Shown: positions 1 to 15,553 of the stretch, in pieces
Layout: the number at the start of each line of letters is the position of its first letter
Position numbering within the stretch: position 1 is the first letter of the stretch
DNA from: Planctomycetota bacterium
Lineage (GTDB): Bacteria; Planctomycetota; GCA-002687715; DRQF01
Length of the DNA stretch: 15,832 nucleotides
Reading direction: 5' to 3'
Assembly (NCBI GenBank): GCA_015485455.1
Contig: WFTN01000216.1
Coordinates: 1-15,832 of the forward strand
Translations under genes and position numbers: made by a program
Notes under the pieces: generated by a model
Told to the model about the DNA's origin: nothing
The model's database searches: none
Seen by the model: the letters and a program-made list of their open reading frames with translations, nothing else

Positions 1-1386
1 ACTCTTGACAATGATGTCTTGAGAACCTTCGGGGGTTTGGGGCTGTGTCAATTGAAGGTCGAAAGTGGTCTTGCCGCAATTGTAGGATTTCTCTCCCAGG
101 GGGCCACCGGTCAACTTGAGAGCATCGACTAAAACCTTGAGATCAATAGGGTTTCGAGTCATGTCACCAGGAATAAGCCCACCAACCTGGACTTTGCCAC
201 CCAAATCTGGGATGCCTTCGAAGTAAGTTGACCAAATGGACAAATCTGTGTTTGCGTCCAAACGCATGCCACGACTGGGTTGATCTCCCATGGCATAGTC
301 ACCGCTGAGAGAGAATTTCCCACCAGGGACAGCAACTTCACATTGGCTCAAAGTCAGTAGGTCCCCCGCCATCTTGACATTCACCACCCCTGTGCCGCAT
401 GGAACTGCCTTCTTTTGATTGGGCATTCCGACAATCTCAACGTCGCTGAGATTGATGAGAGCTTCGACGACCGGGGGCTGCCCCTCAGCCATGAGGACAG
501 TGTTGTCAATCGTTCCCGAAGTCGAAGCCACGCCGCCAGCAGAGGTTTTTGCCACGAGGCCTTGCCACTGTGTCTTACCGCTTACCCGAGTAGCACCTTG
601 AGGGCCGTAGTTCAGGTTATAGTGGGTGTTCACTGTGCCGGAAAGACCACTCAGGTATTGACCCAGATGTGGTTGGTAATCGAAGAGTTGCAGATCGCTC
701 CAGGACAAAGTTCCTGTGGCTGTTATTTTGTCATTGGGAAGCAAGCGATCGCCATCAAACAACTGGCACTTTAGGTCACAGTCAAGACCAGATGGTCCCG
801 TGACTTTTACCTTCAGGTCAGCACCTCGAGAAGCCTCCAAAGAAACGTTCATTCCTGGGAAATCGAGGGCTCGATCCAATTTGATGTCCGAATAGACGAT
901 ACGAAGGTTGTTGACGCGAGCTCTGACCAAGAAATCTGGAATCTCAGTAGATTCGGATCCGGTCTTCTCTCCCTTCTTCTTCGGCCCCTTGGCAATGTCT
1001 TGCCAATCGACCCCTGTTTCGTTTCGTTTGATTCTCACAGTCACATTTTCTGCGACGATGTCCTCAACGATAAAGCGGGACGCCAAGATATCACTCAAAC
1101 TTGGGGCGGTCGTCACCTTGCCAACGGACAAGCAAGGCTCCGATTCTCCCGGCCGGGTCATCGTAAATCCTTCGATTTGGCTGCCGCTCATCCACCCGAA
1201 AGAAAAATCCTCCATGGTGACTTTGGCATCGAGACTCTCCTCCATGGCTTCAACGATCTTTCCTTGGATAAAACCAGAGAAAAGTGTGGGAGCCAGGGCC
1301 ACGAGAACGGCGACGAGAAGAATGAGAAGCAAGACAGCCCGCATGATGCGGCCGAGTGCTGATTTCTTGGGTTTATCTGTGGTCAT
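1..1386 (-). CDS. AsmA-like membrane-anchored protein, partial (C-terminus beyond the left edge)
   Basis: An open minus-strand frame runs without a stop from an ATG at 1384-1386 to base 1, giving 462 residues; the 3' end lies outside the window. The N-terminus is a short basic cytosolic tail followed by one hydrophobic helix (about residues 14-36, rich in Leu, Val and Ala). Next comes a segment typical of AsmA-family N-termini, in which a helix leads into 'amphipathic beta' stretches (around FSFGWMSGSQIEGFTM). The rest alternates short beta-like stretches with Gly, Asp and Asn turns and has no catalytic motif, as in AsmA/DUF748-type proteins. That family is anchored in the inner membrane, extends into the periplasm, and in Proteobacteria is linked to outer-membrane lipid transport or assembly. 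The role here is inferred from general architecture only. No strong Shine-Dalgarno lies before the ATG (only GGAAA about 10 bases upstream). It is transcribed away from the helicase gene. Confidence 0.72.
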   Translation of the reverse strand, partial: MTTDKPKKSALGRIMRAVLLLILLVAVLVALAPTLFSGFIQGKIVEAMEESLDAKVTMEDFSFGWMSGSQIEGFTMTRPGESEPCLSVGKVTTAPSLSDILASRFIVEDIVAENVTVRIKRNETGVDWQDIAKGPKKKGEKTGSESTEIPDFLVRARVNNLRIVYSDIKLDRALDFPGMNVSLEASRGADLKVKVTGPSGLDCDLKCQLFDGDRLLPNDKITATGTLSWSDLQLFDYQPHLGQYLSGLSGTVNTHYNLNYGPQGATRVSGKTQWQGLVAKTSAGGVASTSGTIDNTVLMAEGQPPVVEALINLSDVEIVGMPNQKKAVPCGTGVVNVKMAGDLLTLSQCEVAVPGGKFSLSGDYAMGDQPSRGMRLDANTDLSIWSTYFEGIPDLGGKVQVGGLIPGDMTRNPIDLKVLVDALKLTGGPLGEKSYNCGKTTFDLQLTQPQTPEGSQDIIVKS

Positions 1387-1411
1387 AGCAAGTATTTCCA
1401 AAGTTTGATGA

Positions 1412-1555: not shown

Positions 1556-1634
1556 AGAAATTGCGAATCGTATCCATGCCTCCAAGGTACGTGAACCATA
1601 GCGAAACGAGAGATAAGAGAGAGCTTTTTGACTC

Positions 1635-4600
1635 ATGGCAGACCAGGACAGCAAAATCGGCGAAAATAGCTCAAATGAAGATGGGGATAGGGTGAATTCC
1701 TCGATTCAAGCAGATCAAACAAGTGACTTAGAGGAAAATAGGGAAGAAACCACCCCAGAATTGCCCCCTACCACTGTTGAGCTCCATTTGGATTACGACC
1801 GTTTGGTCAATTTCGCCATGCAACAAAACGATGTTCCGGTGGTGAAGCGCCTCAACTTGGTCAACTCTTCAGAGGCCTTGGACGATGTCACGATCGCCAT
1901 TCAATTGGGTAGCGGCCTCTCAGAAGAACTTCACATTCGCCTGGATCGAATCGCCCCAGAAGAAGAAATCAACCTCGAGCACATCAGTTTGCCTCTCAAC
2001 GTCGATCGTCTGAAAGAGCAATCCGAACGTCAAGAAACCGAATTAGAAGTAACTGTTTCGGCTCGTGGCAAGAGCCCTTCCGTGAAGGGATTCCCCGTTG
2101 AAGTCTTGGCATTTAATGAATGGCCCGGTCTTAGCACTCTCCCGGAAGTCTTAGCAGCCTTTGTTCTTCCGAACAGCCGAGGGGTCAATGCACTCATCGG
2201 AAAGACCGTCCGCACTCACGAAGAGCGTCAGTCCATTCCGATCTTGGATGGCTACCAAAGCGGTGACCCCAACGGCGTGATCGAACAGATTCGATCCATT
2301 TATGAAACTCTGGCCCGAGAAGATTTGGGTTATGTGGGCGTGCCAGCCAGCTTTGAAGATGACGGCCAAAAGGTCCGTTTTCCGGACGTGATTCTCCAAG
2401 ACAAAGTTGGCAATTGCCTGGACCTTTCCCTCCTCGCTGCCAGTGTCATGGAACAATGCGGCCTCAACCCCATTATCGTCTTGACCAAAGGTCATGCCTT
2501 TTGTGGAGCTTGGGTCAGCGATCACTGTTTCCCAGAACCAACAATCGATGACGTGACTTCTTTGCGCAAGCGAATCGACGTTGAAGACATTGTTGTCTTC
2601 GAGTCCACCTTACTGGCCAATCGACCTTTAGTTCCCTTTCATGTTGCCAGAAGTGATGGCAGGAAACACCTGGACAACGGAGACGACTTTTGCGCTGTCA
2701 TTGACATCCGCAGAGCCCGCAAGCTCAAGATTCGCCCACTACCCCAAGCCTCGCAAGAATTCGAAAGCGAGGGAGAATATTTCGGCGTCACCACAACAAG
2801 GATATCTCCTGAAGACTTGGCCACCCTGGGAGCTGAAGTCGAAGATGCCACCACCATCGTGCCCCTTCAGGCAATCGAAGCCCCAACTGTCGAACAACAA
2901 GCGCCTGAGGAAGACAGCCGCATTCGTCGATGGCAAAGAAAACTCTTGGACTTGTCCCTCCGCAACCGTCTTCTCAATTTCCGCCCAACCAAGAAGAATA
3001 TTCCTCTCTTAATTCCCGACTTGGGAGGGTTCGAAGATGCCGTGGAAGGTGGCGTCTCCTTCACCCTCCGCGGGCGCCCTGGCGAGCAAATAGCCAATTC
3101 ACCCCGCGACATGACTATTCAGAAAGATCGCCTTCATGAAGACAGTAAAGTATCGATTCTGGCTGAAGACCTGAACAACCGCATCGTCCATGTTGACACC
3201 GACGAAAAAAATCTCGACGGCAAATTGCTGGATCTGTATCGAGCCAGCCGTAACGAGTTGGAAGAGACGGGCTCCAACACGCTCTTCTTGGCTTTGGGAT
3301 TCTTGTCCTGGAAAGAAAACGAAAGCAGCAACCTGGAACGATTGGCACCCATTATTCTCTTGCCCATGCACTTGACGCGCAAGAGCATCCGCGAGGGATT
3401 CCGCCTTCAGCGAGGCGACGAGGATGCGCGCATCAATACCACCTTATTGGAGAAGTTGAAGCAAGACTTCGGCTTGGATACCGATCACCTGAAGACGCTC
3501 CCCGAAGATGAAAACGGCGTCGACATCGACCTTGCTCTGAAGAACTTCAGAAAGGTCATCATGGATGTGCCACGCTGGGACGTGGTCAACAACTGTGCCC
3601 TGGGGTTATTCTCCTTTAATAAGTTTCTCATGTGGGCAGACTTGGAGAGCCATCAAGATTCTCTTCTCAATAGCAAAGTCGTACGTCATTTGGTCGAAAC
3701 CCCAGGCTCGGCATTCGAGGGTAACGTTGTTTACCCTCAAGCTTCTGAACTAGACAAGATCCTGCCTGCTGGCGAAAATCTTTGCCCCATGGACGCTGAC
3801 TCATCCCAGCTGAGCGCCGTTATAGCGGCGGCCCAAGGTCATACCTTCGTACTGCAAGGCCCCCCAGGAACGGGAAAGTCTCAAACGATCACCAACCTCA
3901 TTGCTCATTGCCTATCGAGGGGAAAACGTGTCCTTTTCGTGGCAGAGAAAATGGCTGCCCTCAACGTGGTTCACGATCGCTTAAGCAAGATCGGCCTGGC
4001 GTCCAGTTGTTTAGAGCTCCACTCTAAGAAAACCAGCAAACGCCATGTCTTAGATCAACTTCAGACAGCAATGACCGCCACAGCCCACAAAAGTACAGGA
4101 GAATGGGAAGAGTTAGCAGAAGAACTCACGGACCGTAGAAAAGACCTCAACGACTATGTCCAAGAGATTCATTCTCGAAGACCCCCGGGCCTCAGCATCT
4201 TTCAAGCCACCTCAAGACTAGCCAACATGGGCGACTTGCCACGCGTCCAATTGAATCTCGCCCACGTTCATGAAATCCACCGGAGCGAAGTCGATGAATT
4301 AGGAGAGTTAGCCGGTTCATTAGGAACAGCTGCCAAGATGGTCGCCCCCGTGAATGACCATTTGTTGCATTCGATTCAAGTCAGCGATTGGAGCCCCAAG
4401 CTAGCCGACCATATTGACCAAGCCGTTCGAGCCGCACAAAAGTCAAAAAAGGATCTTAGCCGAAGTCGCATTGCCATTGGCGAAGAGCTCGGATTACCAG
4501 AGAACGTCGAAACAGACTCCCGTGGCCAGCTTGACGGCTTGAGGCGTCTTTTCGCCTTGCTCTTAGAAAACCCTGGCAGTAGCCGCGATCTACTGACCGA

Positions 4601-7600
4601 ACCTGGATGGGAAGGAATCAAAGAGAGTCTAAAACCTTCATTGGATCGAGGTCGCCAACTGGCCGATCTCCGAATGGAATTGGAGAGACGATACTTAGAT
4701 GAGCTTCTGGCCACAGATGTCACGTCATGGCTCACTTCTTTGCAGAAGGCCCGTTCCTCATTCCCACCCCTCTCCTGGATTCGAGTCTTCCTCACCAAAA
4801 GAGCACTCAAACCCTTCGTAAGAGGTTCTCTGGCGGACACGGACACCCTGGTCCTCGACTTAGGACGCATCCAAAAACTAAGAGAAGAAGAACGCCAGCT
4901 GGCAGAGATTTGCGACCAAGAAAAGCGATTCTTCGGTCATCATTGGCGAGGGGCCAGGAGCGACTGGCAGAAACTACAAGAGATCATTGCCTGGGCCGAA
5001 TCCTTCCGTCAGGAATTAGCTCAACTCAGCCACAACGCTGACTGGGTCGCTGGCGGTTTTCGTGAACGGGCAATCAGACTTGCAGTTGAAGACAGTGACC
5101 AACTTATTGGTCCATCTTCTCTGCGTCAAGACATGGACACCTTCTTGAACGATCTCCTCCAATTAGATCATCGCTTGGAGGCCCTCGATAACATTGTCCA
5201 TTTCGACAAACTTGCGGCCTTTGGGTCAGAAAACGACGAGGGATATTTCGACCGTCTGGGGAAAACTCTCGACAACCTCCTCGACGGCAGAAGAGATCTG
5301 CGAGATTGGTGCCATTGGTCACACTTGATGGCAAGAGCTCAAGAGAAAGGCTTAGAAGAACTAGGGAAAAGTTTGGGCGATGGTTCATTGGCAGGAGAAA
5401 ATGCTCTCAAGGTCTTCAAGAAAAGCCTCTTGGAAGACTGGCTCAATCAGCAATTGGAGGACTCCCTCCTCTTGCGACGCTTCAACAGTTTAGAGCATGA
5501 GCGTAAGATCGCAGCATTTGCTGCCTTGGACCAAAAGATGATCTCCCTTAGTTCAGAGGTGATCAAGTCACGCATCAATGCCAACCTTCCAGGTTTCTCG
5601 AAAGAGGCATCGGCCAAGTCAGAAGTTGGTATTCTCCAGCGGCAGCTCAAACTCAAGCGCCGCCATATGCCGATTCGTCGGTTGTTTGAATCCCTACCGG
5701 ACCTACTCCCTCGCCTAAAGCCCTGTCTCCTCATGAGCCCCTTAAGCGTCGCCCAATACTTGAGCACCGACTACCCTCGCGCTGACATCGTAGTCTTCGA
5801 TGAAGCCTCGCAAATCCCGGTATGGGACGCAATCGGCGCCCTGGCCCGGGGGGAATCCGCCGTCATTGTGGGCGACTCGAAACAACTTCCCCCGACCAGT
5901 TTCTTTCGCACCCAAGATGACGAAGACGATGACCCAGATAGCGACATGGTAGAAGAAGTTGAGAGCATCTTAGACGAATGCGAGGCCGGAGGATTCACCT
6001 CCCTCAACCTCTCTTGGCACTACCGATCTCGACACGAAGACCTCATCTCCTTTAGCAACCATCACTACTACAATAACCGTCTCATGACTTTCCCTTCCCC
6101 GGGAGATACGAATAACCACATGGGCGTCCACTTCGTCCAAGTTGAAGACGCCCACTACGACCGAGCGAAGACCAGAACTAACAAAAATGAAGCCAAAGCT
6201 GTTGTCAGCGATGTTCTTCGCCGCCTGACCGATCCTCAGTTGAGCCAGGACACCATCGGCATCGTCGCTTTCAGTCAAGCACAACAAAACTGCATTGAAG
6301 ACTACTTGGATGAAGCCCGCAGAGAGCACCCAGAAATCGAGTCTTTCTTCGGCGAAGATGTCGCCGAAGCCGTTTTCGTTAAGAACTTAGAAAATGTCCA
6401 AGGTGACGAAAGAGACATCATCCTGTTCTCAATCTGCTACGGTCCTGATGCCGACGGTCGCGTGTCCATGAACTTTGGGCCACTGAATCGGGAAGGGGGA
6501 GAACGTCGTCTCAATGTCGCGATCACCAGGGCAAGAAAAGAACTGCGAGTTTTCTCTACCTTACGCCACGAACAAATTGATCTCTCGCGAAGTCGGGCCT
6601 TAGGCGTGGCGCACCTGAAGTCATTCTTGGAATACGCCGACCGTGGTCACGTCGCCCTGCCTTCGAATTTGGGCCAACGTGGTTTGCGGGAAGCCGAATC
6701 TCCACTCAACGAAGCCATTGCCAAACGCCTGCGGGAACGAGGTTACAAGGTATCCTTACATGTCGGTTCTTCCTCCCAGCCCATCGACTTGGCCATTCAT
6801 GATCCAGACAATGCCGATACCTTCATCTTGGGGATTGAATGCGACGGCAGCAACTATAGCGACTCCGCCAATGCCCGGGATCGCGACCGTATTCGCCCCA
6901 ATGTTCTGAAAGGGCTGGGGTGGGAGCTTTGCCGAGTATGGAGCGGTGACTGGTTGCAGGATCCAGAGCGCGTCTTAGAAGCGATCGAAGCCAAACTCGT
7001 CGAGAAGAGTGATTCTCCCCCGCCACTTACGGAAGAGCAAGAACTTGCGAACGAATTGGAAGCGGAAGAGAACAGCGCCTCAATAACAGACGATGAGGAA
7101 GGAGAGCATCTCAAGCTCAAATTGGTGGAGGCCGTGGAGATATATCGGCCAACAGTGATCCCCAAGAGCAACCTGGGCGCTGAAGCTCTCTACGACGAAA
7201 ATCAAGAAGACGCGGTGCGGCAAGTCATCACTTCAATTCTTGTGCAAGAGTCGCCTGTGTCACTGAATCTCGTGTGTCGACGGTTGATGACAACCTTGGG
7301 TATTGACCGACTCACCAGCCGTGTGCGCAACCGTGTCACAACTTTAATCGCCGAACTGCCGGAGGGAGAAAAACCTAAGATCTTTGACGGCGTCTATTTC
7401 TTAGGTGATGATGAACCCAGCAACTACCGGAAATTTCGCACTGCGGCCTTGGGTGAGATCCCACGGCAAGCCGATGACATTCATCCCATAGAAATTGCCA
7501 ACGCCTGCAAACGGGTCATGGAAGAACAGATCGCCCTTCCCCTCACTGACCTACCAAAAGAAACCGCGAGAATGTTAGGCTTTCCACGTTTGGGCTCAAA

Positions 7601-7715
7601 GGTGAAAGCCGCCATGGACAAGGGCATCGAAGAAATCTTGACCAAGGGCTGGGGAATCCTCGACGACGGACAAGTTCGCCTGCCCCGACAAACTCCAAAA
7701 CAGGACGAGGTGTAA
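1635..7715 (+). CDS. Giant SF1 helicase-nuclease: transglutaminase-like, DUF4011, helicase, Vsr/MTES_1575-like nuclease, DUF3320 (Hhe-like)
   Basis: This 2026-residue cytosolic protein reads as a multidomain nucleic-acid enzyme. Residues 1-45 are acidic and probably disordered. A beta-rich part follows, then a transglutaminase-like domain (about 200-350) with Cys261 (GNCLD), His287 (GHAF) and Glu323 as candidate triad. DUF4011 starts near 429 (W433; RNRLLNF at 443-449). The SF1 helicase has Walker A GPPGTGKS at 742-749 (K748), Walker B D1389-E1390, motif III GDSKQLPP from 1413, motif IV WHYRSR from 1461, QGDE at 1589-1592 and motif VI NVAITR at 1627-1632. A long, largely helical insertion (about 800-1330) separates Walker A from Walker B. 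A PD-(D/E)xK nuclease follows (D1718, E1735, D1737 in GIECDG, then the R-W-rich WELCRVWSGDW), and DUF3320 fills about 1837-2010. This layout is that of the Hhe anti-phage family; the defence role here is inferred. It heads a three-gene unit, and all core motifs look intact. Confidence 0.92.
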   Translation: MADQDSKIGENSSNEDGDRVNSSIQADQTSDLEENREETTPELPPTTVELHLDYDRLVNFAMQQNDVPVVKRLNLVNSSEALDDVTIAIQLGSGLSEELHIRLDRIAPEEEINLEHISLPLNVDRLKEQSERQETELEVTVSARGKSPSVKGFPVEVLAFNEWPGLSTLPEVLAAFVLPNSRGVNALIGKTVRTHEERQSIPILDGYQSGDPNGVIEQIRSIYETLAREDLGYVGVPASFEDDGQKVRFPDVILQDKVGNCLDLSLLAASVMEQCGLNPIIVLTKGHAFCGAWVSDHCFPEPTIDDVTSLRKRIDVEDIVVFESTLLANRPLVPFHVARSDGRKHLDNGDDFCAVIDIRRARKLKIRPLPQASQEFESEGEYFGVTTTRISPEDLATLGAEVEDATTIVPLQAIEAPTVEQQAPEEDSRIRRWQRKLLDLSLRNRLLNFRPTKKNIPLLIPDLGGFEDAVEGGVSFTLRGRPGEQIANSPRDMTIQKDRLHEDSKVSILAEDLNNRIVHVDTDEKNLDGKLLDLYRASRNELEETGSNTLFLALGFLSWKENESSNLERLAPIILLPMHLTRKSIREGFRLQRGDEDARINTTLLEKLKQDFGLDTDHLKTLPEDENGVDIDLALKNFRKVIMDVPRWDVVNNCALGLFSFNKFLMWADLESHQDSLLNSKVVRHLVETPGSAFEGNVVYPQASELDKILPAGENLCPMDADSSQLSAVIAAAQGHTFVLQGPPGTGKSQTITNLIAHCLSRGKRVLFVAEKMAALNVVHDRLSKIGLASSCLELHSKKTSKRHVLDQLQTAMTATAHKSTGEWEELAEELTDRRKDLNDYVQEIHSRRPPGLSIFQATSRLANMGDLPRVQLNLAHVHEIHRSEVDELGELAGSLGTAAKMVAPVNDHLLHSIQVSDWSPKLADHIDQAVRAAQKSKKDLSRSRIAIGEELGLPENVETDSRGQLDGLRRLFALLLENPGSSRDLLTEPGWEGIKESLKPSLDRGRQLADLRMELERRYLDELLATDVTSWLTSLQKARSSFPPLSWIRVFLTKRALKPFVRGSLADTDTLVLDLGRIQKLREEERQLAEICDQEKRFFGHHWRGARSDWQKLQEIIAWAESFRQELAQLSHNADWVAGGFRERAIRLAVEDSDQLIGPSSLRQDMDTFLNDLLQLDHRLEALDNIVHFDKLAAFGSENDEGYFDRLGKTLDNLLDGRRDLRDWCHWSHLMARAQEKGLEELGKSLGDGSLAGENALKVFKKSLLEDWLNQQLEDSLLLRRFNSLEHERKIAAFAALDQKMISLSSEVIKSRINANLPGFSKEASAKSEVGILQRQLKLKRRHMPIRRLFESLPDLLPRLKPCLLMSPLSVAQYLSTDYPRADIVVFDEASQIPVWDAIGALARGESAVIVGDSKQLPPTSFFRTQDDEDDDPDSDMVEEVESILDECEAGGFTSLNLSWHYRSRHEDLISFSNHHYYNNRLMTFPSPGDTNNHMGVHFVQVEDAHYDRAKTRTNKNEAKAVVSDVLRRLTDPQLSQDTIGIVAFSQAQQNCIEDYLDEARREHPEIESFFGEDVAEAVFVKNLENVQGDERDIILFSICYGPDADGRVSMNFGPLNREGGERRLNVAITRARKELRVFSTLRHEQIDLSRSRALGVAHLKSFLEYADRGHVALPSNLGQRGLREAESPLNEAIAKRLRERGYKVSLHVGSSSQPIDLAIHDPDNADTFILGIECDGSNYSDSANARDRDRIRPNVLKGLGWELCRVWSGDWLQDPERVLEAIEAKLVEKSDSPPPLTEEQELANELEAEENSASITDDEEGEHLKLKLVEAVEIYRPTVIPKSNLGAEALYDENQEDAVRQVITSILVQESPVSLNLVCRRLMTTLGIDRLTSRVRNRVTTLIAELPEGEKPKIFDGVYFLGDDEPSNYRKFRTAALGEIPRQADDIHPIEIANACKRVMEEQIALPLTDLPKETARMLGFPRLGSKVKAAMDKGIEEILTKGWGILDDGQVRLPRQTPKQDEV
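7707..7710 (+). promoter_or_regulatory. Ribosome binding site of the receiver-EAL gene
   Basis: GAGG lies seven bases before the ATG at 7718 and inside the last codons of the helicase gene. It supports this start and translation directly after the helicase stop codon at 7713-7715, which leaves only two bases between the genes. Confidence 0.55.
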
Positions 7716-7717
7716 GA

Positions 7718-8853
7718 ATGCCCCAAAACCTGCCAACAGTTCTCTTGGTCGGGCCTCCAGCATTTCAAGAGCGTGTCCTGCCTCACATGGCACCCAAAGC
7801 CGAGGCCCCAATCACCCTCAAACAGTGCCAGTCCCTGAGTGACTTAGATCTCATGGGAGTCGACCTCGTTATCTTTCGGCTCTCTGCTGATCGACCGGAT
7901 GACTTGGCTGGCATGCTCCAGTTCCTGTCCCAAGTCGACCGTCCTGATGCCATCGCCGTGGTAGATTCGTCAACGGAAGACTTAGGTATTGGAGCCGTGG
8001 CCCGTGGCGCCATTGACTTCATCCATGACGACCCTGACGATCTGGCGCTGATACCCGAACTGGCCAAAGAGACGCTTCGCCTTAAATCTCGGGGCAAACC
8101 CAACATAGACGAACTCCTCAAGTCTTTCGCCTCTGATGAAACATTTCAGACGGTCTGTCATCCCATCCTGAGATTGCAAGACATGACCACTTTTGGCTGG
8201 GAGTTCCTCAGTCGCGGGCCCAAAGGCCCCCTTTACCAACCGAGTCGTTTCTTTCGTTGGGGTAAAGAAAAGGATCGCCTTGTAGAATTCGACTTAGCTT
8301 GTCTGGATGCTGCCTTGGAAGCGGCTCAGCACAGTTCTTGCTGTGGGTGTTTGCATTTCAACCTTTTTCCAGAAACTTGGGCAACAAAGGAAGTTCGACC
8401 ACGCTTAGATCGCATGGCTGAACTTTTTCCTGACCATTGCTGCCTTGAACTCAGCGAAACCAATTTGTCGGCAGCAAACCGGAATTCACCCAGGAAAGAA
8501 GGCACTTGAAGAAAATAGGGATTAACTTGGCCATCGACGACATCGGATTTCAGGCCCGAGGTTTTGGATTAGTGAGGGATCTCCAGCCAGAAGTGCTTAA
8601 GATTGATCGCCGAGTCGTCAACAACATCGCGCGCCATCAATCTCGACGAGACATCGTCTCGTCCGCCCTCAAATTAGGAGAATCCTTGGGGGCATGGGTG
8701 ATCGCAGAAGGCGTTGAGCAACGGCAGGAATTAACAATCCTAGAAGAACTTGGGGTATCCTTCGCCCAAGGTTTCTTGTGGGGCAAACCGACTCTCCCAG
8801 ATCAGGCCACCCGTGGTCTGCCATTGGGAGATTCCAGACAGGAGCAGTCATGA
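7718..8853 (+). pseudogene. Pseudo-receiver plus EAL c-di-GMP phosphodiesterase, split by a frameshift
   Basis: Two frames together encode one EAL protein. The first (7718-8509, 263 residues) has a receiver-like N-terminus (about 5-125) in which the expected phospho-acceptor Asp after VDLVI is Phe/Arg and no acidic pocket is visible, so it is probably not phosphorylated. It then has the first half of an EAL domain with EFL at 162-164, N215 and E244. The second frame is open from 8449 to 8853 and supplies LAIDDIG (DD at 8536-8541), LKID (Lys at 8599-8601), AEGVE and QGFLWGKP. Restoring one base near 8477-8482, for example AACCGG to AACCCGG, would join them as an approximately 378-residue protein. 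EAL enzymes hydrolyse c-di-GMP to pGpG, and the metal and catalytic residues seem present. The gene starts two bases after the helicase and its stop overlaps the glk start. A sequencing error could give the same picture. No canonical slippery heptamer is seen, so programmed frameshifting is unlikely. Confidence 0.82.
8841..8844 (+). promoter_or_regulatory. Ribosome binding site that fixes the glk start
   Basis: GGAG lies five bases before ATG 8850-8852. It favours this start over the in-frame ATG at 8778, which would add 24 residues without homology before the phosphate-binding motif and would overlap the EAL reading frame by 76 bases. Confidence 0.65.
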
Positions 8854-9881
8854 GTATTTTGGCCGGTGACATTGGCGGAACGAACTTGCGGTTAGCGATT
8901 TTCGACGACGAAGGCGGCTCCTGCCTCCGAGAGATCGTCCTTTCGACTCAAGACACCGCCGACTGCGGCGTCGCCATCCACGGTTTCCTACGTCAGGCAG
9001 AGGTGGACGGAACCCCCTTCCCTCATGCGGCTGCCATCGGCGTAGCAGGGCCAATCCAAGACGGTATTTGTCGCGGGACGAACTTACCGTGGAACCTTGA
9101 CGAAGAAGAACTGCGGGCCGTCACCGGAATCGAGCAACTTCGTTTAGTCAACGACTTCACCGCCATGGCCAGGGCCGTCCCAGCGCTCAAGACCAATGAC
9201 CTATTAGCCATCCAGGATGGGAAGGCAAAAGAATGGGGACCGGTTTTGCTTTTGGGCCCTGGCACCGGCTTGGGAGTAGCCTACCTCTTGCCCGACCCAG
9301 GATGTGCCGGGGGCTACCGCATTCAACACTCAGAAGGTGGCCATGCCAGCTTCGCCCCACGATCTGATTGGGAAGTGGGGTTGTTTAGCTTCATGCAAGA
9401 GCGCTTCGGACGCGTGTCTAACGAAAGGCTTCTTTCTGGGGCCGGGCTGACCGCTATCACCGCCTACACTGTTCGCGCCTACTTAGAAGAATCAGACGTT
9501 GACGAAGAGCTCCAAGCTATCGTCAATGGCGATCATCAAGATGCAGCGCGGGTGATTAGCGATCGTGCATTTAACCGCGACGATGCCATATGCCAAAAGT
9601 CGATCACAACGTTTTTCGACATCCTCGGCGCCGTAGCCGGTGACTTGGCTTTGATTCTCATGGCCACAGGGGGTATTTACGTGGGCGGAGGAATTGTCCC
9701 TCGCCTATTGTCTGCGTTTGACCCCAAACGGTTTCGCTCGAATCTAGAAGCGAAAGGACGGTTTGTCGATTTCTTAGAAAAAATCCCAGTTTGGCTTATT
9801 CGCAGTCCCAATTCTGGACTTCTCGGCGCCGCGCTTTTGGCCCGCGACCTTCACCGAACTTCAACGGCCTCAAGATCATGA
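8850..9881 (+). CDS. glk: Glucokinase (ATP-dependent, ROK/Glk type)
   Basis: This 343-residue cytosolic enzyme probably phosphorylates glucose with ATP to glucose 6-phosphate. The start at 8850 places the phosphate-binding motif GDIGGTN at residues 6-12, as in bacterial glucokinases. Other motifs in order are GVAGPI, TNLPWNL, LVNDFTA with the catalytic Asp at 102, GPGTGLG from 136, SEGGHASFAP with Glu162 and His165, LLSGAGL, and ATGGIYVGGGI near the C-terminus. The EGGH-x-xFAP form matches the Escherichia coli Glk group better than the zinc-binding ROK repressors, and the length is close to that group (about 320). The start overlaps the EAL gene's stop as ATGA, which suggests translational coupling. 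The stop overlaps the convergent ABC ATPase gene by six bases. Why it follows a helicase-nuclease gene is unclear; co-transcription may be incidental. Confidence 0.93.
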   Translation: MSILAGDIGGTNLRLAIFDDEGGSCLREIVLSTQDTADCGVAIHGFLRQAEVDGTPFPHAAAIGVAGPIQDGICRGTNLPWNLDEEELRAVTGIEQLRLVNDFTAMARAVPALKTNDLLAIQDGKAKEWGPVLLLGPGTGLGVAYLLPDPGCAGGYRIQHSEGGHASFAPRSDWEVGLFSFMQERFGRVSNERLLSGAGLTAITAYTVRAYLEESDVDEELQAIVNGDHQDAARVISDRAFNRDDAICQKSITTFFDILGAVAGDLALILMATGGIYVGGGIVPRLLSAFDPKRFRSNLEAKGRFVDFLEKIPVWLIRSPNSGLLGAALLARDLHRTSTASRS

Positions 9882-12739: not shown

Positions 12740-15553
12740 TCATTTGTTGATCAGTTTCTTCAAATTGGCGAGTCCATCTTTGGTCGCAGAAATATAGAGT
12801 TGCTGTGCCTTGAAGGATCGTGCCACCCAAAACGGCGTCGGGTCCAAGTTTTTGAGTTTCAATAGATACTTATTGCCTTCCTGAAAGGCCACAAGAGCCT
12901 GCTCATAACAAGAAATTGTCATCTCAAGGGAGTCAGCCTGCCCCGGTTTATTCAAGAACACGTGCCCTTTCAGCGTCCATGATTCGGCCATGGCTCGTTG
13001 GCTAGCCAGAGAGTCAGGCATTTCGTTGAAGAGTTTCTTCGCCATGGCGAAGCTCTCTTCCGAGGCTGCCAAGGCAATTTCCTTGCGCTTCAGAATGTTA
13101 GCCAAACCCGCTTTGCGTCCGAGAGAAATCCGCAAGCGACTGACATGATCTAAAGAATCCGGAGAGATTTCTAACATGTGCCGCGTTATGGCGACCGTGC
13201 GATCAACATACTCGAATGCACGGCTATTATCTCCCGTGACGATGGCGGTCATTGTACTGCAGCGTTCCAACACCGTAGCCAAGCTCTCCATCCGGCTGAT
13301 GTTCGTTTCGTCTCCCACCGACAATGCCTGGCGGATTGCGAGAACCTCCAAGAAGAGATCTAAAGCTTCCTTTTCCTTTCCTTTCTGAACGCTCAACGCA
13401 TCCGCGAGCTGAAAGCGAATCACAGCCCCATCTTCCGCGGCGATGTTCCCCTCCTTTTCAGAAGCCAAAACTTCCGGCATGGTGGCGCGCAGCAGAGCTT
13501 CAGCTTCCTGGGCTTGCCCGTTGAGCCCAAGAAGCTGGGCCAACGTGTTCTTGTCCATGATGAGCTGACGTTTCTGGCTTCCATCGTTCTTGCCTGCTGC
13601 TATGACTGCTGACCTCATCTTGACAACGTCACGAAGGGCGTCGATGGCTTGCTGAGGTTTCCCTTCCTTAGCCCATACCATCGCCATGTCTCGTTTGAAA
13701 CTTGCCAAAAGAGAATCCCGCTTGAGCTTCAGATCTGCCTGGGGTTCTATGGCCAGTAAGCGAGCCATGCCAACCTCATAGATCTTTCTGGCCTCATCCG
13801 TATCCCCCATAGAATCCAAGATCTCCGCCGACAGAGATTGGGCTACACAGAGATCGATGGTTCGTCGAGGAGATGGGTCTTCCTCCCAGCGTTTGAGAAA
13901 ACGAGATTCCGCCTTTGCCAAGTGAACGAGGGCCTCTTTACGCTTCCCCAGATTCGGGCGAGTCGGCGTTCCCATGACCGACCCGATTTCCATGTAAGCC
14001 AAAGCGATCGTTCGCTGCATCTCTGGGTCCAAGGCCGCATCAGGAGCCATGGTGTCCAGATGATCAGCGACTTTGATTGCGAGTTTTTCTGCCAGTGGCG
14101 TACTGCCCGGTAGCGCCGCCACTTCATTGAGAAGGTCGATCACCAACCACTCAGCTAAGCTCCTTGTTTCGGCCAAAAGCCGAAGAGCTTGGTCCCGGCT
14201 CCTCGTTGCCTCAAGTGCTGCGGCTTTGGCCTTGCTTTCGGAATCACGGGCCATGTCGCGACTCTGAGTCGCTTCGCGAGCCGCAGCTACAGCCTTATTT
14301 TCTGACTCCCGAGCCGAAATTGCTTGGTTTACCGAAAAAACCGTTGCGACGATCAGGCCGACGACAAAGATGAGAGACAAAGTAACGAGCAAACGATTTC
14401 GCCTTGTGAACAACCGGACTTGGTAGCCCATCGTCGTTGGGCGTGCTTCTATGGGCAAGCCCCCTAAGTATCGCCGAATATCTTCGGCGAAATCATCCAC
14501 CGTTTGATAGCGATCCTTGCGATCTTTTCGCATGGACTTCAGGATGATGGTATCGAGGTCTCCGGCCAGGGAGGGAACAGATTTCGACGGCCGCTGTGGT
14601 GCCACCCCGCGAATCACCTCGATGGCCTGGGGTAAAGACTTTTGGTCAAAATTGTATGGCCTGAAACCACAGAGAAGTTCGTAGAGAATAACACCCAACG
14701 TATATTCGTCACTGCGAACATCAACGACTTCATCCCCTCCAACTTGCTCCGGACTCATGTAAGGCAAAGTCCCAACAATAGAGCCCGGGTTCGTTTCGAA
14801 AGACCGGGTTAAGTTGGCATCGTCTTCAACATGGGCCACGCCAAAATCGATCACTCGCGGTCGGCCATCTGCACCCACAAGAATATTCGCCGGTTTCAGG
14901 TCTCGGTGGATGATTCCATGTTGATGAGCAAAGAACACGGCTTCGCAAACTTGGACAAACAGTTCACAGGTTTCGTTGACTCCCAGGTGCTCTTCCCGCA
15001 CAAACTCCCGAAGGCTCCGGGCATCCGCCACCAGCTCCATGATTATATAAGGAACGGCAACGCCACCCCTCTCCGACTCGCAGACGCCGGAGCCAAACAC
15101 TTGCGCCACACCTGGATGAGCCAAATTGGCCACAAGTTTAGCTTCATAGTCGAATCGTTGCCGGGCTTCCCGAGAAACCAAACCATTCTTCATCAACTTA
15201 ACAGCCACTTTTCGCCCCATGGGCTGCTGGGTAGCCTCAAATACGGCCCCCATACCGCCCTCAGCGATCAATCCTTCGAGTTTGCAGCCCCCAATCTCCA
15301 TTCCCACTAAAGGCACATCAGTCTGGCGCCGAATTTTCTCGGAATGGGTGGGGGCATGTCCGCCATGAGCGGTTTTTTCTGCTCGAAATGCCCCCATTGC
15401 CATCGTTGTCGCATCCAATCGCACCCGAAGAGCCGCAGCTAGCTCTCTGTCTGCCAGGTGAATCGTGTCCAATTCTGCCTCAATCGCCTCTTGAGGCATG
15501 GTTTCAAGGCGTTTGGCAATTCGGGTGACTTCTTCTTCGAATGACTCGCTCAT
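12740..15553 (-). CDS. Transmembrane Ser/Thr protein kinase with coiled coil and TPR-like C-terminal half
   Basis: This 937-residue Hanks-type kinase has an N-terminal segment without recognisable domain (1-85), then a kinase domain (about 88-365). The Gly-rich loop is EGGMGAVFE near 98-106, with Lys119 in VAVKL, HRDLKPAN at 216-223, DFG at 236-238 and SPE at 267-269, so all catalytic residues are present. One membrane helix follows (about 388-410), then a coiled coil with a 21-residue tandem repeat (417-458). A long helical region to the end has spaced segments such as ALVHLAKAE and EALDLFLEVLAIRQAL that look like TPR. The kinase is probably cytosolic and the TPR part outside. Such kinases are common in Planctomycetes. 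It lies 61 bp before an importer operon on the same strand and is divergent from a secreted protein gene. The signal and targets are unknown. Confidence 0.92.
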   Translation of the reverse strand: MSESFEEEVTRIAKRLETMPQEAIEAELDTIHLADRELAAALRVRLDATTMAMGAFRAEKTAHGGHAPTHSEKIRRQTDVPLVGMEIGGCKLEGLIAEGGMGAVFEATQQPMGRKVAVKLMKNGLVSREARQRFDYEAKLVANLAHPGVAQVFGSGVCESERGGVAVPYIIMELVADARSLREFVREEHLGVNETCELFVQVCEAVFFAHQHGIIHRDLKPANILVGADGRPRVIDFGVAHVEDDANLTRSFETNPGSIVGTLPYMSPEQVGGDEVVDVRSDEYTLGVILYELLCGFRPYNFDQKSLPQAIEVIRGVAPQRPSKSVPSLAGDLDTIILKSMRKDRKDRYQTVDDFAEDIRRYLGGLPIEARPTTMGYQVRLFTRRNRLLVTLSLIFVVGLIVATVFSVNQAISARESENKAVAAAREATQSRDMARDSESKAKAAALEATRSRDQALRLLAETRSLAEWLVIDLLNEVAALPGSTPLAEKLAIKVADHLDTMAPDAALDPEMQRTIALAYMEIGSVMGTPTRPNLGKRKEALVHLAKAESRFLKRWEEDPSPRRTIDLCVAQSLSAEILDSMGDTDEARKIYEVGMARLLAIEPQADLKLKRDSLLASFKRDMAMVWAKEGKPQQAIDALRDVVKMRSAVIAAGKNDGSQKRQLIMDKNTLAQLLGLNGQAQEAEALLRATMPEVLASEKEGNIAAEDGAVIRFQLADALSVQKGKEKEALDLFLEVLAIRQALSVGDETNISRMESLATVLERCSTMTAIVTGDNSRAFEYVDRTVAITRHMLEISPDSLDHVSRLRISLGRKAGLANILKRKEIALAASEESFAMAKKLFNEMPDSLASQRAMAESWTLKGHVFLNKPGQADSLEMTISCYEQALVAFQEGNKYLLKLKNLDPTPFWVARSFKAQQLYISATKDGLANLKKLINK
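14180..14305 (-). repeat. Tandem 21-residue coiled-coil repeat inside the kinase
   Basis: Two 63-base units encode residues 417-437 and 438-458. By eye 14 of 21 positions are identical, including the shared run EAT-x-SRD. The period of exactly three heptads fits a coiled coil or stalk that follows the membrane helix. Confidence 0.8.

Follow-up and report, generated by a model that had tools for sequence, protein, structure and literature searches.

The gene at positions 1635-7715 of a 15,832-nucleotide stretch of Planctomycetota DNA (contig WFTN01000216.1 of assembly GCA_015485455.1; hereafter the window) is, judged on its sequence, a routine full-length member of the known anti-phage protein family ProA. 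Its forward-strand open reading frame (ORF) runs for 2026 codons from an ATG start and is free of internal stops, as expected from an original prediction that a single 2026-residue protein combines the domains described below. The product matches NCBIfam NF058533, a curated equivalog model named 'anti-phage protein ProA', with 2067.9 bits against a curated cut-off of 1500 and along the entire model (1-1903 of 1903), which bears out the earlier description of a defence-type protein. The same prediction had placed the protein in the Hhe anti-phage system, perhaps as a divergent member, and neither point survived: on the Hhe model NF042953 it reached 854.8 bits against a curated cut-off of 2000, and among PADLOC models PDC-S37 (1365.4 bits) scored above Hhe (607.6 bits). 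Scores on the ProA model for four named plasmid homologues, from five chosen, ran from 1771.6 to 2317.2, so that the window protein is not notably divergent. Because of these scores we regard it as an ordinary ProA and not a divergent Hhe; with a curated anti-phage family to place it in, no new category is called for.

Pfam matches along the ORF follow the order DUF4011, two halves of a superfamily 1 (SF1) helicase (AAA_11 at residues 722-846, E 2.4e-17; AAA_12 at residues 1455-1640, E 5.7e-20), the Vsr-like nuclease MTES_1575 and DUF3320, just as had been predicted. Since each exceeds its curated cut-off, the matches are not attributable to chance. The helicase Walker A, Walker B and motif VI, earlier described as intact, could all be read in the sequence with K748, D1389 and E1390 in place, and the nuclease residues D1718, E1735 and D1737 lie exactly where they had been reported; every catalytic residue that we looked at is intact. 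The window protein thus has the traits that we associate with ProA, namely an N-terminal fold with its triad, SF1 helicase motifs and Vsr-like nuclease residues, the triad-bearing transglutaminase-like domain being our own reading of the long forms and not an NCBI rule.

The predicted fold supports a transglutaminase-like thiol-peptidase domain with an intact triad at the N-terminus, as do the conserved residues Cys261, His287 and Glu323. Here the original prediction held in part: the Pfam Transglut_core match is weak (E 0.24; 12.1 bits where the cut-off is 23), and it is the modelled fold and the triad that speak for the domain. A profile search of the Protein Data Bank using the N-terminal alignment gave no match up to E 1. 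The Cys-His-Glu/Asp triad is kept in 56 of the 58 long rows of the alignment described below, the window protein counted. A 1242-residue Sel1-repeat protein at L084:585-4310 (G029:C92) also has a transglutaminase-like domain, with identical GTC and GHAF motifs, and its Pfam matches include no helicase domain.

We think it fairly probable that the window gene encodes a single-gene anti-phage type protein that works as follows. The winged helices and helicase would engage foreign nucleic acid with no need of a partner methylase, and ATP-driven movement would switch the protein on. The Vsr-like nuclease would then cut the DNA, and the thiol-peptidase-like domain would serve as a second effector, with a phage or host protein as the target that it cleaves or modifies. 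The full-model match and intact residues support a defence role, as do the patchy presence of the family, its carriage on plasmids and the persistence of the triad in long forms.

The conservation of the two enzyme sites was compared in a 78-row alignment. Long rows (58) and short rows (20) are distinguished by where the ProA-model match starts. The rows comprise the loci returned, best-scoring first, with named plasmids, the L116 scaffold and partial named contigs; matches for which no locus was returned, the fragments L015-L021, L025 and L026, and the smaller piece from the same-genus genome G001 were left out. Among the 53 long rows that reach the nuclease, the triad is kept in 51 and the Asp-Glu-Asp triplet in 42, with ten rows losing only the nuclease triplet and one only the triad (exact McNemar p 0.012, a guide only because the rows share ancestry). 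Minimum changes on a quick tree built without either site were 10 for the nuclease triplet and 2 for the triad. Dropping four rows that share 80% or more identity with another row put the triad at 47/49 and the triplet at 39/49 (9 to 1, p 0.022), and removal of L007 and L054, which may be locally misaligned, gave 49/51 and 42/51 (8 to 1, p 0.039). Taken singly, Glu1735 is kept in 46 of the 53 rows (6 changes), and its contrast with the triad is not significant (6 to 1, p 0.125); Asp1718 is kept in 49 (p 0.69) and Asp1737 in all 53 (p 0.5). The helicase residues K748, D1389 and E1390 are jointly kept in 75 of the 75 rows that reach them. In the copy from G002, another genome of the window's family, Pro replaces Asp1718. 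Given such losses in long rows, the nuclease appears dispensable in several lineages; that the triad, rarely lost in long forms, is the better kept of the two sites is suggested by these counts, not established, and depends on the criterion used.

These contrasts, 51 against 42 rows and 2 against 10 changes, are the grounds for a bolder reading, which we hold only tentatively and, the more so after the non-significant contrast for Glu1735, think on balance unlikely: ProA may be a nucleic-acid-triggered thiol peptidase or protein modifier in which the helicase is sensor and motor, the triad the indispensable effector and the nuclease optional. Were the peptidase-like site truly indispensable, ProA would be a helicase-gated protein-cutting defence and not a restriction-like nuclease. 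Also unlikely, in our view, is that only the helicase and Vsr-like nuclease act, as in restriction, and that the transglutaminase-like domain plays a structural or regulatory part. Short forms that lack the N-terminal domain do exist, 17 of the 20 short rows keep Asp-Glu-Asp, the PADLOC PDC-S37 model starts at DUF4011, and the invariance of Asp1737 and the non-significant contrast for Glu1735 alone point the same way. Against it stand the ten-to-one excess of nuclease-only losses in long forms and the expectation that a pure scaffold would lose its nucleophile more often. Which of the two enzyme sites is the effector is a testable question that emerges as a by-product of this work.

Full-length ProA over the cut-off was found in 42 of 392 genomes of the phylum, the window's own counted, and in none of 14 control genomes, seven of which match below the cut-off. 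Shorter matches to the model at E <= 0.001 occur in 200 of the 392, and we take the sub-cut-off matches to reflect mostly helicase kinship. Among 40 genomes including the window's own, nine are over the cut-off (8 of 39 relatives besides it). So are 31 of the 397 genomes from the class to which G077 belongs, a set overlapping the 392, and 6 of the 12 from the class of the window, whose own genome is counted here too. A housekeeping helicase present in all relatives, the outcome against which the original prediction had been hedged together with the absence of DUF4011 or DUF3320, is not supported: both domains are significant, and full-length matches are patchy though shorter sub-cut-off matches are common.

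ProA relatives are also borne on plasmids of distant phyla. A tblastn search matched 445 plasmid records, of which Klebsiella accounts for 244. Coverage of the query reaches 80% or more in 29 of the 445, the others being shorter matches. Two records in a phage collection match, one of them an unverified scaffold that closely resembles a gene on a Bacteroides plasmid. In a quick tree the Rhizobium copy nests among those that a single family of the window's phylum carries (Shimodaira-Hasegawa-like approximate likelihood-ratio support, SH-aLRT, 96-100), and for this reason the gene seems to move between phyla. Holding the three members of the window's family together gave a tree that outscored the quick free one by 64 log units, which means that the quick trees are not optimal and that the change counts and the Rhizobium nesting are approximate. 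A clade of the seven rows from the window's order was marginally rejected (approximately unbiased test, p-AU 0.042). Recent arrival of the gene in its genus is not supported, the locus being syntenic with that of G001 and a family clade not being rejected. On a Rhizobium leguminosarum plasmid, ProA (L118:8905-17411) is broken by an IS21 element (istA, istB).

Neighbourhoods were read by eye, without a control, from the annotation of ten plasmid regions that we picked from 25 listed among the 445 records. Nine have toxin-antitoxin, nuclease/ATPase, TIR, ubiquitin-like, reverse transcriptase or mobile-element genes near ProA; the Paracoccus plasmid region shows no such defence-like or mobile genes. 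In two of the ten, those of Rhizobium beringeri (L113:3840-14892) and Paraburkholderia phymatum (L115:3123-15534), ProA has a YhaN-family gene and the gene for a DNA repair exonuclease as neighbours; these are plasmids of an alpha- and a betaproteobacterium, the orientations differ, and an SbcCD-like pair is a possible recurrent partner. Genes for Multiubiquitin, a ThiF adenylyltransferase and DUF6527, a ubiquitin-like system, lie upstream of the R. beringeri copy (L113:1086-3434). Within the phylum we took up to two ORFs per side of 28 ProA or ProA-like loci, six of them short forms, in 27 genomes. The resulting 109 mechanically called neighbours matched 35 PADLOC families at E <= 1e-10, among the 25 listed PDC-S01, SoFic, AbiEii, ThsB, PDC-M21A/B and HNH, with four members for mad3, which are probably ABC ATPases. 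As a control, 106 ORFs were taken from 18 stretches in other parts of these genomes, 18 genomes being sampled; they matched 21 families, mostly methylases. As the scan reports families and not which ORF matches, and 35 against 21 carries no significance value, defence-island enrichment around ProA in the phylum is only suggestive. A Pfam scan of the 109 neighbours showed no family in more than four members among the 25 of 151 families listed.

Several points weigh against an anti-phage role for the window gene. The label 'anti-phage' rests on NCBI curation; conserved residues and a predicted fold, whose N-terminal matches have middling Z scores, would not of themselves prove catalysis; and our searches of the accessible literature turned up no paper identifiable as testing ProA or Prometheus, the DefenseFinder system that, going by the names, is probably the same family. 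The window context is one of ordinary metabolism and signalling. The gene is present in all three genomes of the window's family examined, their copies may form one clade (p-AU 0.977), and the ProA of G001 (L027:5710-11982) is interrupted by one in-frame TAG. Given the presence in all three, the possible single clade and the ordinary context, the gene could have become a settled resident.

That the gene serves its host in DNA or RNA repair or stress, co-expressed in this genus with the EAL and glucokinase genes and with no defence role here, nevertheless strikes us as improbable. In G001 the seven neighbours around ProA stand in identical order, one cut by the contig end, making eight genes in common. 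Only 2 bases separate ProA from an EAL-type gene, whose stop overlaps a glucokinase start as ATGA, and on this spacing ProA probably heads an operon with the two. On the other side, no other gene of the window flanks the G002 copy in the stretch examined, only 8 of 39 relatives besides the window's own genome are over the cut-off, and relatives are carried by plasmids. In the window the EAL-type gene occupies two reading frames, but it forms a single 374-residue ORF in G001 (L027:4589-5710, reverse strand); the split reflects either a frameshift or a fault of assembly, and the G001 ProA with its TAG likewise a nonsense change or an assembly error. These two breaks could be taken for a decaying locus in which the window gene survives by chance, which we judge very improbable, because the window ORF is intact over its 2026 codons with its motifs kept and because the breaks could be assembly errors. 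The two genomes are drafts in many pieces, one of 614 and the other of about 820 contigs. That the protein belongs to Hhe has next to no chance: the DUF4011-helicase-Vsr-like nuclease order is shared and the PADLOC Hhe match has E 1.2e-182, but the curated Hhe cut-off is not reached whereas that of ProA is exceeded.

No specific defence gene was seen beside ProA among the nine window proteins scanned with PADLOC and NCBIfam, in keeping with the predicted lack of a visible defence island. Beyond ProA, PADLOC matched only an ABC ATPase and a serine/threonine kinase, matches that we read as generic; the kinase scored 124.7 against a curated cut-off of 460 for NCBI's MADS6 defence kinase. This 937-residue kinase (12740-15553), with weak TPR matches, adjoins an iron-type ABC transporter operon, and the end of its gene is also present in G001. 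The features are collected in Table 1.

Table 1. Features of the ProA gene and the genes downstream of it, in window coordinates
Feature	Position	Residues	Strand	Basis or remark
ProA-family protein, 2026 aa	1635..7715		+	NCBIfam NF058533
N-terminal immunoglobulin-like beta-sandwich	1776..2105	48-157	+	
Transglutaminase-like / papain-fold core	2112..2744	about 160-370	+	predicted fold and residues
Cys261, proposed nucleophile	2415..2417	261	+	Cys in 52/53 long rows; at helix start in model
His287 of triad	2493..2495	287	+	His in 51/53 long rows
Glu323 of triad (Glu or Asp)	2601..2603	323	+	acidic in 53/53 long rows
DUF4011	2940..3458	436-608	+	Pfam E 2e-43
Helicase Walker A, GPPGTGKSQT, with K748	3858..3887	742-751	+	read in sequence
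Helicase Walker B, VVFDEASQ, with D1389 and E1390	5790..5813	1386-1393	+	read in sequence
Helicase motif VI	6504..6536	1624-1634	+	sequence; inside AAA_12
Vsr-like PD-(D/E)XK nuclease MTES_1575, D1718 E1735 D1737	6711..6998	1693-1788	+	Pfam E 1.1e-27
DUF3320 winged-helix domain	7179..7400	about 1849-1922	+	Pfam 1851-1899, E 6.5e-8; predicted model
Second winged-helix domain	7485..7679	about 1951-2015	+	predicted
EAL-type gene, 5' part	7718..8509		+	2 bases past ProA stop; Pfam EAL 21 bits, under cut-off
EAL-type gene, 3' part	8506..8853		+	other frame; Pfam EAL 1.6e-24
Glucokinase	8850..9881		+	ATGA overlap with EAL stop; Pfam 8.8e-94; start read from sequence

Among solved structures, the nearest helicases by sequence are Sen1, SMUBP2 and UPF1 (E 2.7e-9 to 2.7e-4), and it is the helicase that the window protein has in common with them. 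These are eukaryotic helicases without nuclease or peptidase domains. With Hhe (NF042953) the protein shares DUF4011, which is in that model's name, an alignment extending through the Vsr-like nuclease region, and a Upf1-type SF1 helicase, the Hhe helicase being classed as SF1_Upf1 in PMC10925250; it differs in scoring far below the curated cut-off. The PDC-S37 match spans residues 428-2004 and positions 8-1535 of 1550 in the model, and since it begins near the model start, that model lacks the N-terminal transglutaminase-like part.

The architecture and its general interpretation are not new, having been described in 2013 (PMC3710099). That analysis reports giant MTES_1575-type proteins with HEPN, a transglutaminase-like peptidase, an SF-I helicase, a Vsr nuclease and winged helices, proposes that they detect invading DNA with no modification partner involved, as modification-independent restriction, and suggests that cleavage of proteins adds another line of defence. 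The window protein has the peptidase (by fold and residues only), helicase and nuclease in common with these giants, along with two winged helices that overlap DUF3320; it differs in that no HEPN family appears among its Pfam matches up to E 0.1, no HEPN-directed search having been made. The family has since been named anti-phage by NCBI. Prometheus is named among detected systems in PMC12629846, PMC12390725, PMC13356809 and PMC12447246, and the word also occurs in PMC12846349 and PMC13101515; PMC7159879, in its available part, is not about the ProA family, and PMC10250203 classes as core in Pseudomonas aeruginosa a gene that is identified here by DUF4011 only. To ProA itself (NF058533) the likeness is a match along the whole model with no defining difference found, and what sets the window gene apart is its ordinary chromosomal context in its genus.

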